Shown in pieces: positions 9,722 through 39,311 of a stretch of 64,000 nt of DNA. The number at the start of each line of letters is the position of its first letter. The stretch's first letter is position 1. A model generated the notes under the pieces. The model was given only the letters and a program-made list of their open reading frames with translations. It had not been told where the DNA came from and made no database searches. The stretch lies in NCBI RefSeq assembly GCF_902702775.1, contig NZ_LR738724.1, positions 1,674,001 to 1,738,000 on the forward strand. Reading direction: 5' to 3'. A program made the translations under genes and the position numbers. The DNA is from Streptococcus suis (GTDB taxonomy: Bacteria; Bacillota; Bacilli; Lactobacillales; Streptococcaceae).

Positions 9722-12700
9722 TCACTCAATCCCTAAAATCTCACGAATATCCTCAACCGTCAAATTCGCTCGGCTTTCATTGCCATCAAGGACTGTTTTG
9801 ACAAGGTTCTTTTTATTTTCTTGTAATTCTTGAATCTTCTCTTCGATTGTCCCTCTAGTAATCAGGCGATAGCATTCAACCTTTTCAGTCTGCCCCATAC
9901 GATGAGCCCGACTGATAGCCTGTGCTTCCACGGCAGGATTCCACCAAAGGTCGACTAGGATGACTGTGTCTGCACCTGTCAAATTCAAGCCAACGCCACC
10001 TGCTTTCAAGGAAATGAGAAAGGCATCTCGACTTCCTGCATTGAAGGCCTGTGTCATTTCTTGGCGTTGGTTAGCAGGTGTTGAACCAGTCAAAGTATAG
10101 GATGTCATCCCAATTTCTACCAGCTGTTCTTCTATTTTTTCCAGCATATTTCTGAATTGGGAGAATATCAAGACCCTGTGTTCACCTTCTTTTAGTTGCA
10201 AGAGTAATTCTTTCAAACTATTAAGTTTGCCACTCTCACCACTAAACTCTTCCATGAAAAGGCTAGGGGTATCGCAGATTTGACGTAAGCGAGTAATTCC
10301 TGATAGGATTTCTATCTTGCTACGATTGATTTGAGCATCATCTGCGCCAGCTATTTGAGTCCGCATTTGTTGAAGCTGGGCTAGGTAGATGGCTTTTTGT
10401 TCATCTGTTAGTTCATTAAGCACATTGACCTCTATCAAATCAGGCAATTCCTGAAGAACGTCTTCCTTATGACGTCTGAGAACGAAGGGTTGAATGGTCC
10501 GCGCAATGTCCTTGGCTGCTAATTTACCGAAGTCTTGTTTGCCTGGCAATAAACCTGGTAAGACAATTTGGAAAATGGACCAGAGTTCCGTCAAATGGTT
10601 TTCAATCGGAGTACCTGAGAGGGCAAAGCAATTCCCAACCTCAAACTCACGCAGGAGCTGTGCAATCTTAGATTGGGCATTTTTCATAACCTGCGCCTCA
10701 TCTAAAATGAGGTAGTCAAAGCGTTCCTGTCTATAGAGTGCAACATCCTGTCTGAAGGATGGATAGGAGGTAACTAAGACTTGGTGACCATTGGCAATGA
10801 TCTCTTCACGCTGGTCCTTGTTTCCATGGACAACAGCCACATCTAAACCTGGAGCAAACCGCTTGCACTCATCTAACCAGTTATAAATCAAGCTAGACGG
10901 TGCCAATATTAAAACTTTGGAATCTTTTGTCATCCGACTGGACAGAAAGGCGATAGTTTGCAAGGTCTTTCCAAGCCCCATGTCGTCAGCTAAAATTCCA
11001 CCAAAACCATACGTATCCAGCATAGTCAACCACTTAAGCCCTGTCTGCTGATAATCCCTAAGCGACGTTGTTACTTCCACAGCAGGAAGCGGGAACAAAT
11101 CTGGCTGAGCTAGATAGCTTGCCATTTCCTCAAATTCCTTGGAGAAACTGACTTGGTTGAATTGTGACAAGGATTGAGCCAATTGGTAACCAGCAAGAGC
11201 ATGGACTTGTACCTGCCCCTCCTTACCATGACGGGCCCGCAGATAGATTAGGGTTTGACTGATTTTCTTGGTTTCCTCATCAAAAACAAATACCTTACCG
11301 CTCGGGCTAGTATAGTGATCCTCTTGATTCAGCAAGGCTGTAATCGCCTGATCGATTTCAGATTGTTCAATACCTGATAAGTCAAACGAAATATCCAAAA
11401 GTGATCCGTTACGCACAATTTCTAATTGAGGTTTGGCTTCAATATATAAAGCCTGGAGCCTTTCTGCTAGATGAACCTGCCCCATTTTTTGTAATATAGG
11501 CAATTGTTGTTGGAAAAATGGATAGAGATCCTGCTGACTAAGAGCCGCTCTCTGGGCATGATATGTCCCCCTAAAGCCAGCTAAACGAATAGCCTGATAG
11601 ACCCTCTCCAAATGTTGGAAATGGCTGGCAAAAGGCAGGAGAGCCAAATCCTCTTCACTCCTTACCTGACGTCCATCAAAATCCAAAACCAATTGGAGTG
11701 ATAAACTTTCATTTGCCTCCATCTGAATATGAAATTCTGGCTTGAAATCATGAATGATGAAGCGTTTAGGTGCCTTAACAGTCCCAATTGTCTGCAAATC
11801 TAGCAAGCTTAAAGCCAGACGATTTTGGTCAGGGAAATCCACCTGCACTTTTCTCAAACCTGATTCGGTTGGAACAAGTTCGGAAATTTGGTAAATCAGA
11901 TGTTCTTGATGGCGATTGACACTATAAACCGTGCCATTTACTAAGAGATAGCGCCCATGAAAAAGTGGTCGGACTGTTTTTTCGTGAATAACCATTTCAA
12001 TCATCTGCGTGTGAACGGTCACCTCAAAATGATAGAGCCCTTCCTCACCTGTCAACGGAAGAACCATCAAGGAGGAATAGGACTGCTGTTGATAGGAAAA
12101 GTTAAAATGTTCTAGCTGATTTAACAGCTCCAACCCCTCCTCAAAATAGGCTTGTGGCAGGCGAAAATGTCGTCCAAAATGAGTAAGAATATCCGAATCT
12201 ATACCAACTTTCTCTGGTACCAAGGCCCAGAGAAAATCCAGGAGAGCCTGACTTGGTTCATCAAAATTTTCATAAGTAACTTGCTCATAATAATTTTTCC
12301 CTATTTGATAGTGACCATTGGCTTTCACAATGCGCAAAAAAGCTCCGATGTCCCGCACAATGTACGAACGTGTATCTGGCAAACGGGTAATTTTCAAGGT
12401 CCAATCTATCTGACGATCATAGGGCAATAAGCTCCCTTCAACTGATAACTGATACTTAAGCCCCAGTTCAGATTCTGGCCGCAAAATTTCATCTAAAAAG
12501 AGACCGCCAAAATAAGTCCGACGGACGGTTTCCTTATGTTGTTCACCATCTTCTTTCAAAGACTGCTTCATATCCTTGCCCGAGGCATCATTTTTTAAAA
12601 AATACTCCGTGGCAGCTAGGTGTTGACAGTAGCCCTTACTTTGAAATAACTGGCAACTACACTGTAAATCGCTATCTGCATCGCCGTAAGTGAAGCGCTC

Positions 12701-12814
12701 ACCAGCAATATCCAGCACCATCTTTCCATTCTCACTATGAAGAACAGTCAGTTTCCCAGCCTCGTACAAATCAATTCCTTCTTGGCGAATCCGCCCTGGC
12801 ATCATGCGACCCAT
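9722..12814 (-). CDS. SNF2-family helicase/translocase with SWIM zinc finger
   Basis: Large (1030-residue) Swi2/Snf2 superfamily 2 ATPase that translocates on double-stranded DNA; role in bacteria unclear, presumably remodelling protein-DNA complexes. Near the N-terminus a SWIM-type zinc site is visible (Cys52-x-Cys54, Cys63-x-His65). The middle 500 residues carry the bacterial SNF2-associated region. From about 575 come the ATPase motifs: DYQQTGLKWL, ADDMGLGKT (Walker A), LILDEAQ, LSGTPIENHL, and motif VI QAISRAHRMGQTEKV. The frame is open 150 bases further upstream, but that part is intergenic repeat; ATG at 12814 has AAAGGAG at ideal spacing and a family-like N-terminus (MPGRIRQEGIDLYEAGK). 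Confidence 0.93.
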   Translation of the reverse strand: MGRMMPGRIRQEGIDLYEAGKLTVLHSENGKMVLDIAGERFTYGDADSDLQCSCQLFQSKGYCQHLAATEYFLKNDASGKDMKQSLKEDGEQHKETVRRTYFGGLFLDEILRPESELGLKYQLSVEGSLLPYDRQIDWTLKITRLPDTRSYIVRDIGAFLRIVKANGHYQIGKNYYEQVTYENFDEPSQALLDFLWALVPEKVGIDSDILTHFGRHFRLPQAYFEEGLELLNQLEHFNFSYQQQSYSSLMVLPLTGEEGLYHFEVTVHTQMIEMVIHEKTVRPLFHGRYLLVNGTVYSVNRHQEHLIYQISELVPTESGLRKVQVDFPDQNRLALSLLDLQTIGTVKAPKRFIIHDFKPEFHIQMEANESLSLQLVLDFDGRQVRSEEDLALLPFASHFQHLERVYQAIRLAGFRGTYHAQRAALSQQDLYPFFQQQLPILQKMGQVHLAERLQALYIEAKPQLEIVRNGSLLDISFDLSGIEQSEIDQAITALLNQEDHYTSPSGKVFVFDEETKKISQTLIYLRARHGKEGQVQVHALAGYQLAQSLSQFNQVSFSKEFEEMASYLAQPDLFPLPAVEVTTSLRDYQQTGLKWLTMLDTYGFGGILADDMGLGKTLQTIAFLSSRMTKDSKVLILAPSSLIYNWLDECKRFAPGLDVAVVHGNKDQREEIIANGHQVLVTSYPSFRQDVALYRQERFDYLILDEAQVMKNAQSKIAQLLREFEVGNCFALSGTPIENHLTELWSIFQIVLPGLLPGKQDFGKLAAKDIARTIQPFVLRRHKEDVLQELPDLIEVNVLNELTDEQKAIYLAQLQQMRTQIAGADDAQINRSKIEILSGITRLRQICDTPSLFMEEFSGESGKLNSLKELLLQLKEGEHRVLIFSQFRNMLEKIEEQLVEIGMTSYTLTGSTPANQRQEMTQAFNAGSRDAFLISLKAGGVGLNLTGADTVILVDLWWNPAVEAQAISRAHRMGQTEKVECYRLITRGTIEEKIQELQENKKNLVKTVLDGNESRANLTVEDIREILGIE

Positions 12815-12867
12815 TCTAACTCCTTTATCCTTCAACCAATCATCAGCTCTTCTGTAAAATATATCTA

Positions 12868-12971
12868 ATACTCTTCGAAAATCAAAATTATCCGTTGTCA
12901 ACTTGCCTTGATGAACTCCAGTTCTATCTTCGACTTCGTTTCCTAGGCTACTTTTGATTTTCATTGAGTAT
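12868..12971. repeat. Short MITE-like repeat with imperfect terminal inverted repeats
   Basis: About 104 bp whose ends are ATACTCTTCGAAAATCAAAA and, reading inward from the other side, ATACTCAATGAAAATCAAAA (16 of 20 identical). It is of the kind scattered between streptococcal genes (CTCTTCGAAAATC ... CATTGAGTAT). It lies just upstream of the SNF2 gene and on the minus strand is open in the same frame, giving a false N-terminal extension. A piece of one end (ATACTCAATGAAAACC) recurs at 53231. Confidence 0.65.
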
Positions 12972-13788: not shown

Positions 13789-15099
13789 TTACTTCCGTTT
13801 CCGTGCAATCAGATGAATCGGTGTTCCTTCAAAGACAAAGGCCTTGCGGATTTGATTTTCCAAGAAACGCATATAGGAGAAGTGCATGAGCTCTTCTTCG
13901 TTGACAAAAACCACAAAGGTCGGTGGCTTGGTCGCAACTTGAGTCGCGTAGAAAATCTTGAGACGTTTACCTTTATCAGTCGGTGTTGGATTGATAGCAA
14001 TGGCATCCATGATGACATCGTTAAGCACAGCCGATGGAATACGGGTATTCTGGCTTTCACTGATAGCCTTGATCATCTCAGGCAACTTGTGCAAGCGTTG
14101 CTTGGTCAAGGCTGACACAAAGATAATCGGTGCATATGACAAATACTGGAATTGATCACGAATATCGTCTTCCCACTGCTTCATGGTGTGGTTGTCTTTT
14201 TCAAGCGTGTCCCACTTGTTGACTACGATAATCATTCCCTTACCAGCCTCATGGGCAAAACCGGCGATGCGTTTGTCATACTCACGAATACCCTCTTCAG
14301 CATTGATGACCATCAATATGACATCGGAACGTTCAATGGCACGCATGGCACGCATAACAGAGTATTTCTCTGTATTTTCATAGACCTTACCAGATTTGCG
14401 CATACCTGCGGTGTCAATCATGGTAAACTCTTGGCCTTCTGGGTCTGTAAAGTGCGTATCAATGGCATCACGAGTCGTTCCAGCAACAGGTGAGGCAATC
14501 ACACGCTCTTCACCCAAAATGGCATTAATCAAGCTTGATTTACCAACGTTTGGACGACCAATCAAGCTGAACTTGATAATATCTGGATTTTCTTCTGCTT
14601 CTTGGACTGGAAGATTTTCAATGATAGCATCCAGGACATCCCCTGTTCCGATACCGTGTACAGAAGATACTGGATAAGGATCGCCAAGACCGAGTGAATA
14701 GAAATCGTAGATGTCATTACGCATTTCAGGGTTATCGACTTTATTAACAACCAAAATGACTGGTTTGTTGGTCTTATAAAGGATACGCGATACATACTCG
14801 TCCGCATCTGTCACACCTTCTTTGCCTGAAACGACAAAGACGATAACATCTGCTTCATCCATAGCAATCTCAGCCTGATGCTTGATTTGCTCCATGAAAG
14901 GAGCATCCACATCGTCAATACCACCTGTATCAATCAAGGAAAACTTACGGTTGAGCCACTCACCAGTAGCATAAATACGGTCGCGGGTCACACCTTCCAC
15001 GTCTTCTACGATAGAAATACGTTCCCCCGCAATACGGTTAAATAGTGTTGATTTACCAACATTGGGACGTCCAACGATGGCGATAGTTGGTAGAGCCAT
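13789..15099 (-). CDS. der: Ribosome biogenesis GTPase Der (EngA)
   Basis: Essential tandem GTPase needed to assemble the 50S ribosomal subunit. The 436-residue protein has two Era-like GTPase domains, each with a P-loop GRPNVGKS (residues about 8-15 and 182-189) and DTAG/DTGG switch ([16 protein letters not shown]), NKVD and NKWD base-recognition motifs, then the KH-like C-terminal domain. Length and order are standard. It closes an operon nrdR-dnaB-dnaI-nitroreductase-der in which neighbours overlap or nearly touch, a layout conserved in streptococci. Confidence 0.97.
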
Positions 15100-15117
15100 A
15101 GCTCCTCCTCTTCTAGT

Positions 15118-15831
15118 TTACAATAATTTATTCTTTTCTAAGATAGACTTTGTTTCTGGTTGTTCAGCCTGACCAAACTGGGCAACCATACGCTCGGACC
15201 AGGTTTCTGTCTGACGGGCACCTGCATAGGCTGTCTGAACTTGGTCGTAGGCTTGGATTACTTCCACGCCTTGCTCCACATATTCTTCCTGAAAGACAAT
15301 GGTTTCACTTGCCAAACGTGGTTTGACAGGATGGTTTTGGGCTGGTCGACCCAAGGCAATACAGAAAATGGGATAGGTATAATCTGGCAAGTTGAACAGC
15401 TCTGCTATTGCCAAGGCCTTATGGCGAATCATACCGATAAAGACGCCACCGTAACCTAAGCTTTCCGCTGCCAAGAGGGCGTTTTGCCCTGCTAGGCTCG
15501 CATCAACAGAAGAAATCAGGAGATTCTCTGTTCCTTTGGCATCAAAGTCTGAACCATGGAGTTGAGCCGCCTTGCTGGCACGATTATGGTCGCCCACAAA
15601 AACCAGAATAGCCTGAGCCTGTAAAATAGCTGGCTGAGGCACCAAATCATAGAGTGCTTGTTTTTTCTCCTCCAACTGCACCACAATGATGGAATAGGAC
15701 TGGAAATTCTTCCAGCTAGACGCAGCTCGCCCAGCTGAAATAATAGCTTGCAAATGTTCCGCCTCAATAGGCTCCTCCGTAAAACGACGGACGGAAGTAT
15801 GATTCAACATCAAGTCTATGGTTTCATTCAT
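15118..15831 (-). CDS. Nitroreductase-family NAD(P)H flavin oxidoreductase
   Basis: A 237-residue FMN-dependent nitro/flavin reductase-like enzyme (NfsA/FRP type). The FMN-binding start HTSVRRFTEEPIEAEHLQAII and the GRAASSWKNFQSYSIIVV loop are typical, as is LGYGGVFIGMIRHK and the GRPAQNHPVKPRL C-terminal signature. Natural substrate unknown; family enzymes reduce nitro compounds, quinones or free flavin. Its ATG overlaps the dnaI stop by four bases (ATGA), so translation is coupled to the primosome gene although a functional link is not obvious. Confidence 0.9.
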   Translation of the reverse strand: MNETIDLMLNHTSVRRFTEEPIEAEHLQAIISAGRAASSWKNFQSYSIIVVQLEEKKQALYDLVPQPAILQAQAILVFVGDHNRASKAAQLHGSDFDAKGTENLLISSVDASLAGQNALLAAESLGYGGVFIGMIRHKALAIAELFNLPDYTYPIFCIALGRPAQNHPVKPRLASETIVFQEEYVEQGVEVIQAYDQVQTAYAGARQTETWSERMVAQFGQAEQPETKSILEKNKLL

Positions 15832-32575: not shown

Positions 32576-32584
32576 AGATTGTAT

Positions 32585-33013
32585 ATGACATTCAAATCCA
32601 TTCTCAAACAACTCAAACTATTTGATTATATCTTAATCGGATTCACCCTAGTTTTATCCTTTCTTCCGGCAATTTTTACCTATACACATCTGACAACAGA
32701 TACAAATGAGGCAAAAACAATTGCCTATGTCCGCATCAATGGTGAGGTGGTCGACCAATTTGAATTATCAAAGGACACACCCCATCAAGAAAAGACCTAC
32801 TATCCCAATGAAGGGCAATACAATATCATTGAAGTTGATGGCGAACGCATTCGTGTCAAGGAAGACAATAGCCCAGACCAAATTGCCGTTATGACCAGCT
32901 GGATTAGTCAGCCGGGCGAATTATCCGTCTGCCTGCCACATAACCTGTTGATTGAAATCAAATCCGTTGGCGGGGAAAGCACTGACGAAGAAGAACTCAT
33001 TTTACCACTATAA
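32585..33013 (+). CDS. eetA: NusG domain II-containing protein, EetA-like
   Basis: A 142-residue membrane-anchored protein: short basic N-terminus, one transmembrane helix (about 13-32) and an extracellular beta-rich NusG_II domain (YVRINGEVVDQFELSKDTPH ... GQYNIIEVDGERIRVKEDNSPDQI). In Listeria the same domain type is EetA, a membrane part of the extracellular electron transfer chain. Context supports this: the other components lie immediately downstream on both strands. It is convergent with dmkA and separated from eetB, unlike in Listeria where eetA-eetB are adjacent. Annotation by domain and neighbourhood; function here is inferred. Confidence 0.78.
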   Translation: MTFKSILKQLKLFDYILIGFTLVLSFLPAIFTYTHLTTDTNEAKTIAYVRINGEVVDQFELSKDTPHQEKTYYPNEGQYNIIEVDGERIRVKEDNSPDQIAVMTSWISQPGELSVCLPHNLLIEIKSVGGESTDEEELILPL

Positions 33014-33018
33014 CAAAG

Positions 33019-33053
33019 AAGACACAGCCTGATGAACGACTGTGTCTTTCCTT
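33019..33053. terminator. Bidirectional terminator between eetA and dmkA
   Basis: AAGACACAG (33019-33027) and CTGTGTCTT (33040-33048), followed on the plus strand by TCCTTTTT. Same stem sequence as the terminator at 35080-35114. Confidence 0.75.
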
Positions 33054-33054
33054 T

Positions 33055-34011
33055 TTAGAAAATAAGGGCTAAAGCAAGTATCACCACATATAGCAGCGCA
33101 AAGAGTACAAAACTCTTTACTGCCTCGATAAAGGTTTCCCGTTTGACTTGCTTTTTCAAAAATGTTTCTAGACTCTTATAAGCAGGCCAAACACCGATTA
33201 AACCGATCAGTGCCCAGATTGGTAAGAATCCAGTCAGACAGTAGATTATCCACAGCAACCATGGTAAACTTGCCAAGACAAAATACAATTTAAGAGCATT
33301 TTTCTTGCCAATATAGTAAACCAGAGTATAACGATGGTTGCGAATATCTTCTTCTAAATCACAGGTATTGTTGGCCAACATGATATTGGCAATCAAGGTT
33401 ACCAAAGGAAGGGACATAACAATAATGTCTATTATTTTTGTCCAAGAGAATTGCAAGGTCATCCACTGGCCACTCACTTGGCTGGTCAATAGCCCAGCTG
33501 GGTCTTGGATAAAGACTGCTAAGAAGAAAATCCCAAATCCCATGGTTACTCCAGAGAAAACCTCACCCAGTGGCATTCTCGAAAGCGGAATAGGTCCAAA
33601 GGTATAAAAGATACCAATGAGGAAACAGAGAGCTCCCATCGGTAGTAGGAGCCAACTGGTCCGCCATACAAGGAGCAATGAAACCAGTAGAGAAAAAATA
33701 AGCAGGGCAAGGACGATTCCAATCATCTGACGGAAATCTAGAGAGAATTTTCCAATCACATTGCTTTCCTGACGATAGGTTTCATCCTTGGCCTTGTGGT
33801 AGTCCATGCTATTGTTGATGGCAGTTGTACACATGTCAAAGCTAAGAACGGCAATAATGAACAAAAGTGTGTTGAGCCAGTTAAAGGTTTGATAGCGATA
33901 GATAGCCCAGAGGATTCCCAAGGTCATCGGAAAAACACTAGCTACCTTGGTCTTCATTTCAACAAATTCTAGAAATGCAGGCAAACTGAGCCCTTTAGTT
34001 GATTTATTCAT
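33055..34011 (-). CDS. dmkA: UbiA/MenA-family prenyltransferase, DmkA-like
   Basis: Membrane prenyltransferase (318 residues, eight to nine helices) that attaches a polyprenyl chain to an aromatic acid; in the electron-transfer locus, DmkA makes demethylmenaquinone from 1,4-dihydroxy-2-naphthoate. The two Asp-rich motifs of the family are visible: NNSMDYHKAKDETYRQ near residue 60 and NTCDLEEDIRNHRYT near 200. Start at 34011 (MNKSTKGLS) overlaps the fmnB stop by eight bases, with GAGGAG 13 bases upstream; an ATG at 34032 is an alternative. No gene for naphthoate synthesis is in the window, so the precursor would come from elsewhere. Confidence 0.85.
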   Translation of the reverse strand: MNKSTKGLSLPAFLEFVEMKTKVASVFPMTLGILWAIYRYQTFNWLNTLLFIIAVLSFDMCTTAINNSMDYHKAKDETYRQESNVIGKFSLDFRQMIGIVLALLIFSLLVSLLLVWRTSWLLLPMGALCFLIGIFYTFGPIPLSRMPLGEVFSGVTMGFGIFFLAVFIQDPAGLLTSQVSGQWMTLQFSWTKIIDIIVMSLPLVTLIANIMLANNTCDLEEDIRNHRYTLVYYIGKKNALKLYFVLASLPWLLWIIYCLTGFLPIWALIGLIGVWPAYKSLETFLKKQVKRETFIEAVKSFVLFALLYVVILALALIF

Positions 34012-35053
34012 TGACAAGATGATACTCCTCATTCGTTAATTCAAAGCTTTCTTTCAAGCCATCACTCAGATGAACGCCCTGCTCCTTATCGATGAAAACA
34101 GCTTCTACGCCGTCAATCTGATTGATAAAGTCAAGACCTTTTTCCACACCTAGTAAGAAGAGAGTTGTGGATAAGGCATCCCCTTGGATAGATGTTTTGG
34201 AAAAGACTGTCACACCTGAAATATCGTTTTCCACAGGATAGCCAGTTTTTGGATCCAGAATATGGTGATACTTGACACCGTCCACCTCTAAGTAGCGCTC
34301 GTAAATACCTGAGGTAACAACCGAGTCATGTGTCCCTGGCACAGAACCGACCGTTGATCCACGCACTTGGTCTGGGTCTTGAACTCCAACATTCCAACCA
34401 TTTTGTGTAGTTGGCGAATCCCCCATAACCACCACATTCCCGCCTAGATTGATGATAGCTGTCGTAATCCCTTTGCTGGCAAACAATTCTCTAACCTTAT
34501 CTGCAATGTAACCTTTGGAAATAGCTCCTAATTCTAGCGTCATTCCTTCTTTGATAAAGACGGTCTTCTTCTCCTTATCTAAAGTAATGTCTTTATAATT
34601 GATAAATGGCAGAGCAGCCTTGATTTCTTCATCACTGGGCTTACGAGCATCCTCATCTCCAATTTTCCACAGATTGCTCACAGCTCCAATGGAAATGTCA
34701 AATAGGCCCTGACTTTCATTACTCATGTCAATAGCTGTTTCAATTACTTCAAAGGTACGTTCATCCACCTTGACTGCTTCTTTTCCTGCTGCCTGATTGA
34801 TACGGTAGACATCTGCCCCTTCCAAGTTTGTGGACAACAGACTTTCCATCTCCTTGATATAGGAGACAGCTTCATCCATCGCTTCTTCCTGATTTTCATG
34901 ATAAATGCTCAACTGCACTACTGTGTGAAGTAAGCTTTCACTACGAGTCAACGGAGTTTTCATAACAGATAAACCTTCGTTTTGTTTACCACCACAGGCA
35001 ACAAGCAAAACCATCAGTAGGCCCACGAACAATAGACTTGCAATTTTTTTCAC
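34004..35053 (-). CDS. fmnB: FAD:protein FMN transferase (ApbE family lipoprotein), FmnB-like
   Basis: Extracytoplasmic enzyme that moves FMN from FAD to a Thr of target proteins. The 349-residue protein starts at GTG (35053, GGGGAAGG upstream) and has a lipoprotein signal with LLVAC. ApbE motifs: LGAISKGYIADKVREL, INLGGNVVVMG, VVTSGIYERYLEVDGVKYHHILDPKTGYP and the metal-binding DALSTTLFLLG. A longer frame from TTG at 35095 begins inside a terminator and is rejected. The obvious substrate is the FMN-binding lipoprotein encoded just upstream. Confidence 0.93.
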   Translation of the reverse strand: MKKIASLLFVGLLMVLLVACGGKQNEGLSVMKTPLTRSESLLHTVVQLSIYHENQEEAMDEAVSYIKEMESLLSTNLEGADVYRINQAAGKEAVKVDERTFEVIETAIDMSNESQGLFDISIGAVSNLWKIGDEDARKPSDEEIKAALPFINYKDITLDKEKKTVFIKEGMTLELGAISKGYIADKVRELFASKGITTAIINLGGNVVVMGDSPTTQNGWNVGVQDPDQVRGSTVGSVPGTHDSVVTSGIYERYLEVDGVKYHHILDPKTGYPVENDISGVTVFSKTSIQGDALSTTLFLLGVEKGLDFINQIDGVEAVFIDKEQGVHLSDGLKESFELTNEEYHLVNE

Positions 35054-35070
35054 TGATTTTACCTTCCCCA

Positions 35071-35114
35071 AAAAATAAGAAGACACAGTAGCCAAACAAG
35101 TGCGACTGTGTCTT
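35071..35114 (-). terminator. Terminator between the PplA-like gene and fmnB
   Basis: Stem AAGACACAGT (35080-35089) / ACTGTGTCTT (35105-35114), 15-base loop, T-rich run on the minus strand. It lies 16 bases past the lipoprotein stop and should partly separate its expression from fmnB-dmkA. Confidence 0.75.
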
Positions 35115-35130
35115 TTCTGTATAGACTTAA

Positions 35131-35610
35131 TTAGTCAAGTTTTACAGTTTCTGTTTTTCCTTCAGCAGCTGCTGCAAGAAGGGCTTCTGTACTCTTCTTG
35201 AAGTCTTCAGAAGTATGAGTTGCACCTGATACAACTTCAACAGCTGAGAGGTCTTGTTTCTCAACCAAAGCTGCATTGAGTTGTTCGATTGCTTCACCAG
35301 CAGAAACTCCAGCTTTATCTTTCATGTTTTTGTTGTACTCTTCATTTGCTGATTTAAGGCTTCCATCTTCAGCTTCATAGTCAAATTTTGACTCACTGAT
35401 TTTTCCATCTTTAACAGTCAATGTGTGAACAATTTTGTAGCCATAATCGTCTTTGCCTGACTCAGCTTTATAAGTACCATCTTTCAATACTACTGTTTCG
35501 GTAGTTGAAGATGAAGTTGAAGTAGATTCTTGTTTAGAACCGCAAGCAGCAAGTGCAAATACAGCACCAAGAACTACCAAACTTTTCAACACAACTTTAG
35601 TTGTTTTCAT
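35131..35610 (-). CDS. FMN-binding-domain lipoprotein, PplA-like
   Basis: A 159-residue surface lipoprotein: signal peptide with lipobox AAC (Cys23), a Ser/Thr-rich linker (24-40), and one FMN_bind domain (41-150). The flavinylation signature SGATHTS is present at 128-134, the Thr131 being the expected attachment site for FMN by the ApbE-type enzyme encoded next to it. Listeria PplA has two such domains; this one has one. Strong ribosome site and own downstream terminator suggest it is made in excess over the enzymes, as fits a terminal electron carrier. Confidence 0.88.
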   Translation of the reverse strand: MKTTKVVLKSLVVLGAVFALAACGSKQESTSTSSSTTETVVLKDGTYKAESGKDDYGYKIVHTLTVKDGKISESKFDYEAEDGSLKSANEEYNKNMKDKAGVSAGEAIEQLNAALVEKQDLSAVEVVSGATHTSEDFKKSTEALLAAAAEGKTETVKLD

Positions 35611-35688
35611 AACAATACTCCTTTTGTTAAGTAAATAGTTTTATACTTATAATGATATACCTAATTAGAGAAAATGTCTAGTTATTTT

Positions 35689-36678
35689 TTAAAAATAATG
35701 ACTAAAAACTATTGCCACCAAATTTTGCATAGACGCAGTCGATAACTGTGGTATTCTATCTACAAAATTCATCATTTTTTCCAAATAGCTAACAATCAGT
35801 TTCTCTGTTTTGGCAATAGCATGCGTTGCAAAAATCCTATCTGTAAGGATTTCCAACCCTTCTGCCGTAGGGGATTGAATATAGGCCCGCAATTGCTGCT
35901 GGATAGACTTGTCTTCTCGCATGGCAAAAAGTAGCGGTGCAGTATAGATACCGTTTTGAATATCTTGCAATCTAGGTTTTCCTGATTCTGCCACATCCAG
36001 CTGGTAGTCAATTAAGTCATCTCGTAGCTGAAAGGCCATGCCAAGTGCTTGCCCAGACCGAAAAGCCATGCTACTGTCTTTCCTAGATTGGCCTGGTACA
36101 AAGCTCCCCAACTGACAGGCAAGTCCAAATAGAAAAGCTGTTTTCCCTTGAATTTGCTTGAGATAGGCTTTCATAGTCATATTGGCATCAAATTGATTGA
36201 GTAGCTGAGATAATTCCCCTCGAAGAATTGTTTCCATCAGCTTATCATTGCCCAAATCCAAATCATCACGTGATACTTCTAGCAAACGAAGCCCTTTTCC
36301 AAATAGTCGACTTGAATAGGCAAGAAGATAATCACCCGTGTAGATAGCGATTCGATTAGAAAATTGTTGATGAGCCGCCGTGACTCCCCGCCGTTTATCC
36401 GCGCCATCAATCACATCGTCATGAATCAGAGTCGCCAGATGCAGGACTTCTAAATGGGCAGCAAAATATAGCTTTGAACGGCTAATCTTTCCTTCCGTCA
36501 TTTGTGCAAAGAGCAGACAGAGGCCGGCACGCAGGTATTTCCCTGGCGCCTCTACATATTCAACAATCTTCGCTGTAACTGCTGGATGCAGGACCATCAT
36601 CTCAGATAAGATGATGGATTTTACCTCTTCAAGTCCCCTCTCAATCTCAGGATAGGTATTCCAAATTTGATGTACCAC
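35689..36678 (-). CDS. dmkB: Polyprenyl diphosphate synthase, DmkB-like
   Basis: Trans-isoprenyl diphosphate synthase (329 residues) that builds the quinone side chain from isopentenyl and allylic diphosphates. First Asp-rich motif LIHDDVIDGADKRRG (about 87-101) and second FQLRDDLIDYQLD (about 216-228) are intact. Start is GTG at 36678. Within the electron-transfer locus this is the DmkB role, supplying the prenyl donor for DmkA. It lies between ndh2 (18-base gap) and the PplA-like gene. Confidence 0.88.
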   Translation of the reverse strand: MVHQIWNTYPEIERGLEEVKSIILSEMMVLHPAVTAKIVEYVEAPGKYLRAGLCLLFAQMTEGKISRSKLYFAAHLEVLHLATLIHDDVIDGADKRRGVTAAHQQFSNRIAIYTGDYLLAYSSRLFGKGLRLLEVSRDDLDLGNDKLMETILRGELSQLLNQFDANMTMKAYLKQIQGKTAFLFGLACQLGSFVPGQSRKDSSMAFRSGQALGMAFQLRDDLIDYQLDVAESGKPRLQDIQNGIYTAPLLFAMREDKSIQQQLRAYIQSPTAEGLEILTDRIFATHAIAKTEKLIVSYLEKMMNFVDRIPQLSTASMQNLVAIVFSHYF

Positions 36679-36696
36679 TAACTTTCTATATTTCCT

Positions 36697-38589
36697 TTAT
36701 TTTTTATCCTTGATACGGTAAATATGCTTCGGCTTTCCATAAATCTTCTTGTCTAGGAAACGACCCAACCATGGCATAATCCAGTAGTCTAGACCGAAGG
36801 CTCTACCCGCACCATTCATAAGAGAAATAGCTGCTGGGATGAACCAAATATTTACCCAGTAGAACATACCTGACAGGCTGAACATAACTACCAAAGCAAC
36901 GGTTGCAGCAGATACAATCCATACAAAGGCACCAGCAATCAAAGCCAGACCAATACCGATTTCTGCTACTGTCATAAATTTTTGCATAAAGAGTGCTACT
37001 TCTTGGTTTGGCATCATAAATTCCATGATAGTAGCAAACCAATCAGGCATTTTGTCCAAAACAGCCATCGGTGCTTCACCATAGGCATAGCTCAAACCAA
37101 AAATTGGTTCAGCAGCTTCTGCCGCAGCAGTTGCCGCTTGTGAGGCACTTGAAACCGCCTCAGCAGCAGATGCACCAGATACTGGATCAGCTAACCAAGG
37201 GAATGGGAAGACAACTTGATCCCCAAACCATGATGTTGTTCCAAATAGACCAAAGGCTTTCTTGATACCTTCGTAGAGCCATACTGAACCATAAAGGACA
37301 CGCATTGGCACAGACCAGAGAAGATTTCCTTTGCCTGAAGTATGACCTCCGAAAATGTTTCGCTTATTCTGAATGTCAAAGAATTCATGACGAACATAAG
37401 AACCCATGTAGAAGAAACTACGGATGGTAAAGAAGTAGAGTAGGTTTACCATGTGTTTGACAGCCATTGCCATAAAGCCTGACATGTGGTATTTGTCCAT
37501 CAAGAAGGCTACACCGTAGCGTGATCCAATAGATACCATAAACCCATCATATTTACCTTTGTAGCTATGTTTTTCGCCACCCTTGATTGCTGCAATAATA
37601 TTACTTGCCGCAGTATGGCCTGTCTGTTCAGCTGCTTGTACAATCTGTGGAGTTGGTTTCCCTTCTGATTCTTCAAAGTAAACCAAGTCACCAGCTACAT
37701 AGACATTTTCCTTGCCTTTCGCTTCCATGAACTCATTGGCTACCAAACGACCTGCACGTGCTTTTTCAATACCAAATTCACTTGCGTCTGTATTGGCTTG
37801 AACACCAGCTGTCCAAATAGAGGTATAGGTAGGAATTTGACGACCTGATGAAAGTGTTAAGCTATCTTTTTGTACACTTGCTACACCATCGCCAAGAACC
37901 AATTCAACACCTTTTTTCTCAAGGTATTTGCGAGCCTTGACTTGCTCTTTTTCAGTAACCATAGCCAAGATATTTGGCGTTGCCTCAACAACCTTAAGTG
38001 AGAATTCTTTTGGATCCAACTTGAACTCACGCGCCAAAATTGGTACCCAGTCAATCAACTCACCGATCATCTCAATACCTGTGAAGCCAGCACCGATAAC
38101 GGTAAAGGTTAAAAGAGCGCGACGTTTGGCTTCATCATGCTCACGCATGGCACGATAGCAAGCATCAATCATGTGGTCATGCAAACGTTCTGCTGCTTCG
38201 ATAGACCAAAGTGTAAAACCGTGTTCTTTAACACCTTTCACACCAAAGTCATTAGCCTCACCACCCATTGCAAGGAGCAGGTAATCAAAATCCAAAGTTT
38301 GGTGTTCCGCAACTACTTGTTTCTTATCGTAGTCAATCTCAACAACCTTGTCTGTTACTAATTGAACCTTTGGATATTTTTTGAAGATACGTTGAAGGTC
38401 ATACTTGATTGCATTGGCTTCTACACGCCCTGCCGCAACTTCATGCAACTCTGTCATATAGGTATGGAAAGAGTTCTTATCAATCAAGGTAACTGTTACA
38501 TCTTGATCCTTTTTAAAGGTTTTTCCTAGCAATCGAGCTGCTGCAATCCCCGCATAACCAGCACCGACAATCACAATATTTTTCGTCAC
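36697..38589 (-). CDS. ndh2: Type II NADH dehydrogenase with C-terminal membrane domain, Ndh2 of electron-transfer type
   Basis: A 630-residue NADH:quinone oxidoreductase. Residues 1-400 are a type II NADH dehydrogenase: FAD motif IVIVGAGYAGIAAARLLG, NADH-binding FTVIGAGFTGIEMIGEL, second FAD contact VYVAGDLVYF and AEQTGHTAASN. From about 400 to 600 follow membrane segments, resembling a DoxX-like unit, with an Ala-rich loop (about 475-500). Such a C-terminal extension distinguishes the Ndh2 of flavin-based extracellular electron transfer from respiratory Ndh. GTG start with AAGGAGGAAA. First gene of the ndh2-dmkB-pplA-fmnB-dmkA transcript. Confidence 0.92.
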   Translation of the reverse strand: MTKNIVIVGAGYAGIAAARLLGKTFKKDQDVTVTLIDKNSFHTYMTELHEVAAGRVEANAIKYDLQRIFKKYPKVQLVTDKVVEIDYDKKQVVAEHQTLDFDYLLLAMGGEANDFGVKGVKEHGFTLWSIEAAERLHDHMIDACYRAMREHDEAKRRALLTFTVIGAGFTGIEMIGELIDWVPILAREFKLDPKEFSLKVVEATPNILAMVTEKEQVKARKYLEKKGVELVLGDGVASVQKDSLTLSSGRQIPTYTSIWTAGVQANTDASEFGIEKARAGRLVANEFMEAKGKENVYVAGDLVYFEESEGKPTPQIVQAAEQTGHTAASNIIAAIKGGEKHSYKGKYDGFMVSIGSRYGVAFLMDKYHMSGFMAMAVKHMVNLLYFFTIRSFFYMGSYVRHEFFDIQNKRNIFGGHTSGKGNLLWSVPMRVLYGSVWLYEGIKKAFGLFGTTSWFGDQVVFPFPWLADPVSGASAAEAVSSASQAATAAAEAAEPIFGLSYAYGEAPMAVLDKMPDWFATIMEFMMPNQEVALFMQKFMTVAEIGIGLALIAGAFVWIVSAATVALVVMFSLSGMFYWVNIWFIPAAISLMNGAGRAFGLDYWIMPWLGRFLDKKIYGKPKHIYRIKDKK

Positions 38590-38632
38590 AATGTTTCCTC
38601 CTTGTGAAAATCAAAACAAATTACATGTTTTC

Positions 38633-38661
38633 ATTATACCGCATTCCAAGATAGTTGACAA
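38633..38661 (-). promoter_or_regulatory. Promoter for the ndh2 operon
   Basis: Minus strand TTGTCA (38656-38661) and perfect TATAAT (38633-38638), spacer 17. Confidence 0.8.
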
Positions 38662-38699
38662 GCGAATTTCAATAATTAGTAATATACAACAAACAAAAC

Positions 38700-38728
38700 T
38701 TGCCATAGTGAACAAAAACAAGTATGAT
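38700..38728 (+). promoter_or_regulatory. Promoter for eetB, divergent from ndh2
   Basis: TTGCCA (38700-38705) and TATGAT (38723-38728), spacer 17. The leader to the ATG contains AGAAAG facing TTTCT, which could cover the ribosome site. Confidence 0.6.
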
Positions 38729-38771
38729 AGTAAAATAGATAATCGACTAGAAAGAGTTTTTTCTCTACACC

Positions 38772-39311
38772 ATGAATTCTAAACGTCAAACACTTAACTT
38801 TATTACGATGCTGGCAGCTCAGGCAGTTGTCATTTCTTTGATTGAACGACTCATCGCCCCCCCATTTGCTTTTGCTCCAGGTGCCAAGCTAGGACTGGGA
38901 AATTTGATTAGCTTAATTGCTATTTTTACCCTCCCTACAAAGGATAGCCTAAAGGTTGTCGCACTACGCTTGCTCATCTCAACCTTTCTGGGAGGCACCT
39001 TTTCAACCTTCCTCTATGGCTTTGCCGGAACTACTTTGAGCTATATAGGAATGCTCTCTGCCAAGCAGCTCGGTCCAAACCGTGTCAGTCCTATTGGAAT
39101 TTCTATTCTGGGCGGGATGTTGCACAATCTTGGTCAGCTTCTTGTTTTTGCTACCATTGCCCGGTCTTTCTATGTACTAAACTACCTGCCAATCCTCGCT
39201 TTTACAGGAATTTTATCAGGCTTATTGGTCGGACTGGCTGCTACCTACCTCCTCCAAAAGGTCGGACCTTTACGTCACTATCATCAACAAGTCTTAGCAG
39301 AATGGAAATAA
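38772..39311 (+). CDS. eetB: Gx transporter/heptaprenyl diphosphate synthase component I family protein, EetB-like
   Basis: A 179-residue membrane protein with about five helices, of the Hpre_diP_synt_I (Gx transporter, ECF S-component-like) family. The signature APGAKLGLGNLISLIAIF, FLGGTFSTFLYGFAG and GGMLHNLGQLLVF are visible. In Listeria the same family member is EetB, which with EetA moves electrons across or out of the membrane. Divergent from ndh2, with its own promoter and terminator. Confidence 0.85.
   Translation: MNSKRQTLNFITMLAAQAVVISLIERLIAPPFAFAPGAKLGLGNLISLIAIFTLPTKDSLKVVALRLLISTFLGGTFSTFLYGFAGTTLSYIGMLSAKQLGPNRVSPIGISILGGMLHNLGQLLVFATIARSFYVLNYLPILAFTGILSGLLVGLAATYLLQKVGPLRHYHQQVLAEWK

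Follow-up and report, generated by a model that had tools for sequence, protein, structure and literature searches.

What could Streptococcus suis, a pathogen of pigs and people that is usually regarded as a fermenter, do with genes that would let it discharge electrons to its surroundings? The question is raised by a seven-gene locus within a 64,000-nucleotide stretch of S. suis DNA (contig NZ_LR738724.1, positions 1,674,001 to 1,738,000; hereafter the window), which holds homologs of ndh2, dmkB, pplA, fmnB, dmkA, eetA and eetB, the genes of flavin-based extracellular electron transfer (FLEET; extracellular electron transfer in general, EET) in Listeria. The presence of such a locus is confirmed here, and about one in six of the Streptococcus species examined (49/284) carry the package. 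We consider it likely that these genes form a Listeria-type module that passes electrons outward.

The locus and its recurrence in Streptococcus

The original prediction, made from the letters alone, assigned the seven genes to named families, and a search with hmmscan against Pfam and NCBIfam (Pfam alone for EetA and EetB) places all seven there (Table 1). The strand arrangement that it described, with eetA on the plus strand, five genes on the minus strand and eetB again on the plus strand, is borne out as well, such that eetB diverges from ndh2 and eetA converges with dmkA, while the reading frames of fmnB and dmkA overlap by 29 bases. Only the start needs amending: position 32585 is indeed an ATG, two codons downstream of the TTG at 32579 with which the eetA reading frame opens. 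All seven frames are whole, and the window lies within a single contig of 2,189,829 bases from a genome that is 100% complete. A FLEET locus is expected to encode an Ndh2 with a C-terminal membrane extension as well as DmkA and DmkB for making demethylmenaquinone, and both features are found here. The 630-aa Ndh2 comprises a type II NADH dehydrogenase (NDH-2) part, approximately residues 1–400, followed by a DoxX/DoxD-like membrane domain; the parts of the literature available to us held no mention of a link between DoxX and the Ndh2 of EET.

Is the locus peculiar to this strain, as its description as a feature of one streptococcus implied? Among 284 Streptococcus species genomes, long Ndh2 (E up to 1e-60) was found in 48, PplA (E up to 1e-6) in 48 and EetB (E up to 1e-10) in 49, with all three in 47 and a union of 49. 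The trio is incomplete in two genomes, G218, which is 74% complete, and G260, which is in about 700 contigs; all counts over the genus ignore phylogeny. The EET genes thus travel as a package in Streptococcus, and the repeated appearance of this set across the genus excludes chance. That description was therefore too narrow, all the more so since a locus of S. ictaluri already appears in a figure legend from 2019 (PMC7074142; what is said here of cited papers refers to the parts of each that were available). The window Ndh2 itself matches that of S. suis 10581 (L118) at 100% identity, which places the genome in S. suis or a very close species.

The arrangement is conserved to a large extent. 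Seventeen of the 27 Streptococcus loci compared have exactly the order eetB< ndh2> dmkB> pplA> fmnB> dmkA> eetA<. As for the other ten, two are cut by the end of the available DNA (L111, L114), one is cut downstream and lacks eetB upstream (L107), two lack eetA beside dmkA (L110, L130), two are split (L121, L123), one has two pplA genes (L124), one has dmkA and dmkB in pieces (L126), and one is complete with another apbE adjoining (L128). Splitting was seen in four genomes, in which eetB-ndh2 and the group of pplA, fmnB, dmkA and eetA are both present but separated by approximately 130 kb in G155, G049 and G270 and placed on different contigs in G060. In G155, eetA lies a further 4.7 kb away from dmkA, and in S. 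thoraltensis (G270, L123) and S. hyovaginalis (G060, L121), both matched to their loci by contig coordinates, dmkB stays with ndh2.

FmnB, the lipoprotein and flavinylation

The nearest solved structure to the window FmnB is that of Listeria FmnB (7esa), and their alignment conserves the equivalents of the Ser257-His273-Asp301 triad and of Glu261/Arg262, catalytic residues taken from PMC8906456. FmnB has a lipobox, LVAC, recognized by eye. Its presumptive substrate, the PplA-like protein, has the lipobox LAAC with Cys23 and, in a motif scan, a single flavinylation motif, SGAT at residues 128–131, which places the acceptor at Thr131, the residue originally proposed. The designation as PplA-like holds in so far as this is an FMN_bind lipoprotein with an SGAT motif, and fails in that the one-domain protein falls below the cut-off of the NCBIfam PplA model; it may work like PplA though it lies outside that model. 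It is also the sole FMN_bind match in its own genome (E up to 0.001).

Considering that the enterococcal Cad lipoprotein has the same gene neighborhood (PMC7074142), one may ask whether the lipoprotein is chiefly a precursor of a cAD1/Cad-type pheromone, with the signal peptide rather than the flavin domain as the selected product. Exactly one [ST]GA[ST] site is kept in each of the 25 PplA-like open reading frames from Streptococcus loci, and the redox set co-occurs with them, both of which speak against a pheromone precursor and leave that role very unlikely.

Several other flavinylation-related genes were seen along the way. The window genome has two further ApbE genes, one of them a 257-aa ApbE in a second redox cluster (L194:3684-6359, contig position about 1,208,700-1,211,400) together with a 420-aa FAD_binding_8 and NAD_binding_1 protein, NOX-like or ferric-reductase-like by eye, and a 219-aa DUF2271 protein. 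DUF2271 is an established ApbE substrate (PMC8238504), and this one has, by eye, AGSAS at the position expected for [ST]GA[ST]. The other homolog (L193:6028-7056, 342 aa) has no signal peptide evident by eye and lies close to a flavodoxin gene (L193:4541-5032). S. varani carries two tandem pplA-like genes (L124:13086-14390), one with SGAT and one with TGAT. FMN_bind matches occur in 121 Streptococcus genomes, many within open frames of approximately 600 or 800–1000 aa, which are perhaps flavinylated proteins resembling fumarate or urocanate reductase; the window genome has none of these large frames.

Quinone supply and electron outlets

Where would the quinone come from? MenB, the one men gene searched, is over its cut-off in none of the 284 Streptococcus genomes, with Lactococcus lactis as a positive control, and one MenB-like match in the window genome reaches 74.6 bits against a cut-off of 342.7. 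Since no genome has MenB, the precursor 1,4-dihydroxy-2-naphthoate (DHNA) must come from outside, in support of the scavenging that had been suggested from the sequence. UbiA-family matches of at least 60 bits, counted as MenA-type, occur in 66 of the 284 genomes, comprising every genome that carries EET genes or cydA (65/65) and 1 of the 219 others (G238). Matches of a weaker class at 33–42 bits (23 genomes) and partial matches at approximately 21 bits or less (14 genomes) were excluded from this count, and none of these 37 genomes has EET genes or cydA. The weaker class represents another gene of the UbiA family, usually lying in a frame of about 305 aa.

Does the quinone instead serve aerobic respiration via cytochrome bd? 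In S. agalactiae, NDH-2, MenA and CydAB are encoded in one ndh-menA-cydABCD operon, and external quinone, which feeds NDH-2, is supplied together with heme (PMC6030563). CydA was found in 29 of the 284 genomes, and EET genes and cydA co-occur above chance (cydA in 13/49 EET genomes vs. 16/235 without EET genes), so that a mutual exclusion of the two, also considered, was rejected. Against respiration as the role of the window genes, CydA is absent from the window genome, in keeping with the published absence of cydABCD from S. suis (PMC2696406); 36 of the 49 EET genomes lack it, and of the 13 with a match 3 (G036, G051, G061) have it fragmented, compared with 0 of the 16 non-EET genomes that carry it. 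Moreover, the cyd-linked NDH-2 proteins encountered are separate and 401–404 aa long. Respiration through cytochrome bd is thus already refuted for the window strain unless an unrecognized quinol oxidase exists, and as an explanation of the locus it is exceedingly improbable. EET is the only quinol outlet seen in the genome, cytochrome bd being the sole alternative searched.

Two neighboring cases deserve mention. In S. thoraltensis (L123:1-10000), some kilobases separate the eetB-ndh2-dmkB half from a second menA-ndh pair, of respiratory type, and by coordinates cydA begins approximately 6 kb from ndh2. In Streptococcus sp. X13SY08 (L126), dmkB (11991-12919) and dmkA (14700-15655) are each in two pieces, whereas ndh2, pplA, fmnB, eetA and eetB give single full-length matches, which makes this strain a candidate natural case of EET without a prenylated quinone of its own.

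FAD export and selection on the locus

It is in the delivery of flavin adenine dinucleotide (FAD) to the outer face that the S. suis locus appears to depart from its Listeria model. In Listeria, FAD is exported by EetB with FmnA, which resembles the T component of energy-coupling factor transporters (ECF-T), and EcfA ATPases; fmnA belongs to the gene set, and Listeria EcfT is apparently unable to substitute for it (PMC9973259). The original prediction matched the seven genes to the Listeria component list correctly as far as the seven named parts go but left out fmnA, and its word "complete" is too strong, because no FmnA-type ECF-T was found beside the locus and no orphan one in the genome. 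The three ECF-T (CbiQ) matches in the genome all adjoin ABC ATPase genes (ATPases by eye), one beside two of them and the other two in cassettes with ATPases of their own. A profile built from these three S. suis ECF-T alone found none in the examined flanks of 80 EET loci. EetB may use the housekeeping EcfT or work otherwise, or FAD may come from outside. Streptococci with no detected FmnA offer a natural test of the way in which FAD for flavinylation is exported.

Is the pathway then a relic, out of use for want of FmnA and of DHNA synthesis? The two negative results, for FmnA-type ECF-T and for MenB, speak for a relic. The sequences themselves suggest otherwise, in that the seven frames are whole and the ratio of nonsynonymous to synonymous substitution rates (dN/dS) is low: against the S. 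suis-type loci L118, L140 and L108 it is 0.013–0.024 for ndh2 and 0.03–0.14 for the other six genes (pplA, 0.05–0.07), compared with 0–0.06 for the neighboring ktrA and MATE genes. The locus is thus under purifying selection. Against the more distant loci L109, L115, L112 and L120, many pairs are close to or beyond saturation at synonymous sites (pplA, up to 0.45 vs. L120), so only the near pairs are informative. In addition, the fermentative lactic acid bacterium Lactiplantibacillus plantarum performs EET with quinones supplied from outside (PMC10746273). Disuse is accordingly very unlikely.

The comparison also brought out a patchwork in S. suis YS56 (L108:9277-16000), where the synonymous divergence (dS) from the window is 0.41–0.86 from fmnB to eetB and 0.06–0.21 in eetA, dmkA, the MATE gene and ktrA, as though recombination had replaced the central part of the locus.

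A path for electrons

The most likely path, judged from the gene set, would lead from NADH through Ndh2, demethylmenaquinone and flavin mononucleotide (FMN)-bearing PplA to an extracellular acceptor. DmkB would make the polyprenyl chain, which DmkA would join to scavenged DHNA to yield demethylmenaquinone. Ndh2, anchored by its DoxX/DoxD-like domain in the membrane beside the quinone pool, would oxidize NADH at the cytoplasmic face and reduce the quinone. EetB with an ECF motor, which must be the housekeeping EcfT/EcfA or else act differently because no FmnA was found, would deliver FAD to the outer face, where the lipoprotein FmnB would transfer FMN to Thr131 of PplA. PplA would then hand electrons to ferric iron, free flavins or quinones, and the physiological gain, we infer, is the regeneration of NAD+.

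Alternatively, the locus may act as an NADH:quinone reductase whose outlet is mainly free quinones, flavins or oxygen outside the cell, the last giving extracellular reactive oxygen species, with PplA minor or dispensable. PplA is not needed for Fe3+ reduction in Enterococcus faecalis (PMC9864754) and is needed in L. plantarum under some conditions only (PMC8837199, PMC10746273), EET of E. faecalis is reported as a source of reactive oxygen species (PMC12810646), and the broken dmkA and dmkB of X13SY08, with the rest whole, look as if ready-made quinones could serve. A dispensable part should, however, be lost more often than pplA, which only one of the 49 EET genomes lacks (the 74% complete one) and which is constrained as described above. 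We regard an outlet of this kind as unlikely, though less so than the other alternatives.

A number of observations weigh against the transfer of electrons through PplA by a Listeria-type module. First, the lipoprotein scores 127.5 bits against the NCBIfam PplA model (NF041941), whose cut-off is 325, and covers positions 3–175 of its 302. Second, an FmnA-type ECF-T, expected of a FLEET locus, was not found beside the window locus, and FmnA is required in Listeria unless FAD is supplied (PMC9973259). Third, with PplA dispensable in E. faecalis and eetA in Listeria (PMC9973259), not every part need act as modeled, and with two further ApbE genes in the genome, flavinylation may extend beyond the locus. 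Finally, the module is decaying in some species, since the Ndh2 match of G263 falls in two frames and dmkA of G207 holds stops. In a survey of lactic acid bacteria, iron reduction was tested in a single Streptococcus, S. agalactiae, which showed little or none (PMC8837199).

Going further, and tentatively, S. suis and most EET streptococci might keep a quinone pool solely for EET, with demethylmenaquinone made from the DHNA of neighbors and no other quinol outlet (cytochrome bd being the one searched), bring FAD to the surface through EetB and a shared housekeeping ECF motor, a simpler arrangement than the EetB–FmnA of Listeria, and use an Ndh2 set apart from respiratory NDH-2 by a DoxD-like quinone-handling domain. 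If the locus works, S. suis would possess a conditional electron outlet switched on by the DHNA of its neighbors, and the quinones of the surrounding community could then govern its redox balance. The distribution of MenA-type genes and MenB across the genus, given above, makes this idea testable.

Other features of the region

Table 1. Coordinates of the seven genes and accompanying sites in the window.
Feature	Coordinates	Strand	Evidence or remark
Whole module, seven genes	32579-39311		read ndh2-dmkB-pplA-fmnB-dmkA on minus; eetA, eetB on plus
eetA, NusG_II-domain protein, 144 aa	32579..33013	+	PF07009 1.3e-25
Hairpin of 11 pairs resembling a terminator, where the ends of eetA and dmkA converge	33019..33048	-	one of 12 terminator-like sites in the region
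dmkA, 1,4-dihydroxy-2-naphthoate polyprenyltransferase (UbiA/MenA type), 325 aa	33055..34032	-	PF01040 2.1e-21; NF009926 336 bits, cut-off 316
fmnB, ApbE FAD:protein FMN transferase, 363 aa	34004..35095	-	PF02424 9.4e-88; structure 7esa 1.3e-97
pplA-like lipoprotein, 159 aa, one FMN_bind domain	35131..35610	-	PF04205 1.2e-07; SGAT motif scan
dmkB, polyprenyl diphosphate synthase, 329 aa	35689..36678	-	PF00348 1.9e-53
ndh2, type II NADH dehydrogenase with C-terminal DoxX/DoxD-like membrane domain, 630 aa	36697..38589	-	Pyr_redox_2 2.9e-42, DoxX 7.7e-05
Promoter-like site TTGTCA-17-TATAAT upstream of ndh2	38633..38661	-	11/12 consensus matches, consensus only
eetB, membrane protein of Gx type, by homology an ECF-S-like subunit for FAD export, 179 aa	38772..39311	+	PF07456 (Hpre_diP_synt_I) 2.2e-45

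Signs of regulation are sparse. Rex-type operators do not exceed chance, with 6 against 7.87 expected (the one at 38602-38619 has 3 mismatches), catabolite-responsive element (cre) sites number 0 in the window against 1.18 expected, and between 29500 and 41000 no Rfam family is over its gathering score, two sub-threshold matches being judged chance. Promoter-like sites in the region are at chance level (19 vs. 20.7 expected by shuffling); terminator-like sites number 12, with 8.1 expected by shuffling. The XRE-DUF3278 genes upstream were considered as part of the module and are not counted in it, because a DUF3278 match lies near eetA in only 6 of the 27 Streptococcus loci, namely four of S. 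suis, one of an uncultured Streptococcus and, weakly, one of S. cuniculi.

Comparison with known systems

Outside Streptococcus, the streptococcal order recurs in 4 of 53 loci, all from Aerococcaceae (Fundicoccus, Ignavigranum and Aerococcus: L138, L144, L153, L180), whose layout is identical and whose PplA proteins, at 172–425 aa, have one or two flavinylation sites compared with one in S. suis. In an Ndh2 tree built by a quick method from 70 of 81 rows, after removal of 11 near-duplicates, the streptococci fall on one side of a branch (support 100), and streptococci and Aerococcaceae together on one side of another (Shimodaira–Hasegawa-like approximate likelihood ratio test, 98), with L138 and L144 flagged as long end branches of unsure placement. 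The likeness could reflect common descent or transfer between the families, and we do not choose between the two.

Of the 17 Enterococcus FLEET/Cad loci compared, 15 hold all seven genes, and, as in S. suis, no ECF-T was found in the flanks examined. Their order in those 15 is dmkA< fmnB< pplA< ndh2> eetA> eetB> dmkB> (16 of the 53 non-Streptococcus loci), and PplA is a two-site protein of 305–330 aa in 17/17, compared with the one-site protein of 159 aa in S. suis. The original prediction was of an order different from that in Listeria; the order is unlike that of the enterococcal loci, with which the comparison was made here. The Listeria monocytogenes locus, lmo2634-lmo2641, shares Ndh2, DmkA, DmkB, FmnB with its catalytic residues, PplA, EetA and EetB, and differs in having fmnA, none being found at the S. 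suis locus, and in a PplA that carries two flavins (PMC7859304). The FLEET of L. plantarum is a case in which activity has been shown (PMC10746273). The NDH-2 of S. agalactiae, with 402 aa, no C-terminal membrane domain and cytochrome bd as its outlet, is unlike the window Ndh2.

A complete FLEET locus is reported from 11 of 38 Lactobacillales genera (PMC8837199), and current production by S. mutans is cited in PMC7859304; searches naming S. suis turned up no report of EET in the part of the literature covered, on which priority cannot be fully judged. Listeria and other lactic acid bacteria thus already provide examples of the system, and what the S. suis locus adds is a one-site PplA, a setting in which no FmnA was found, and a genome with no cytochrome bd.

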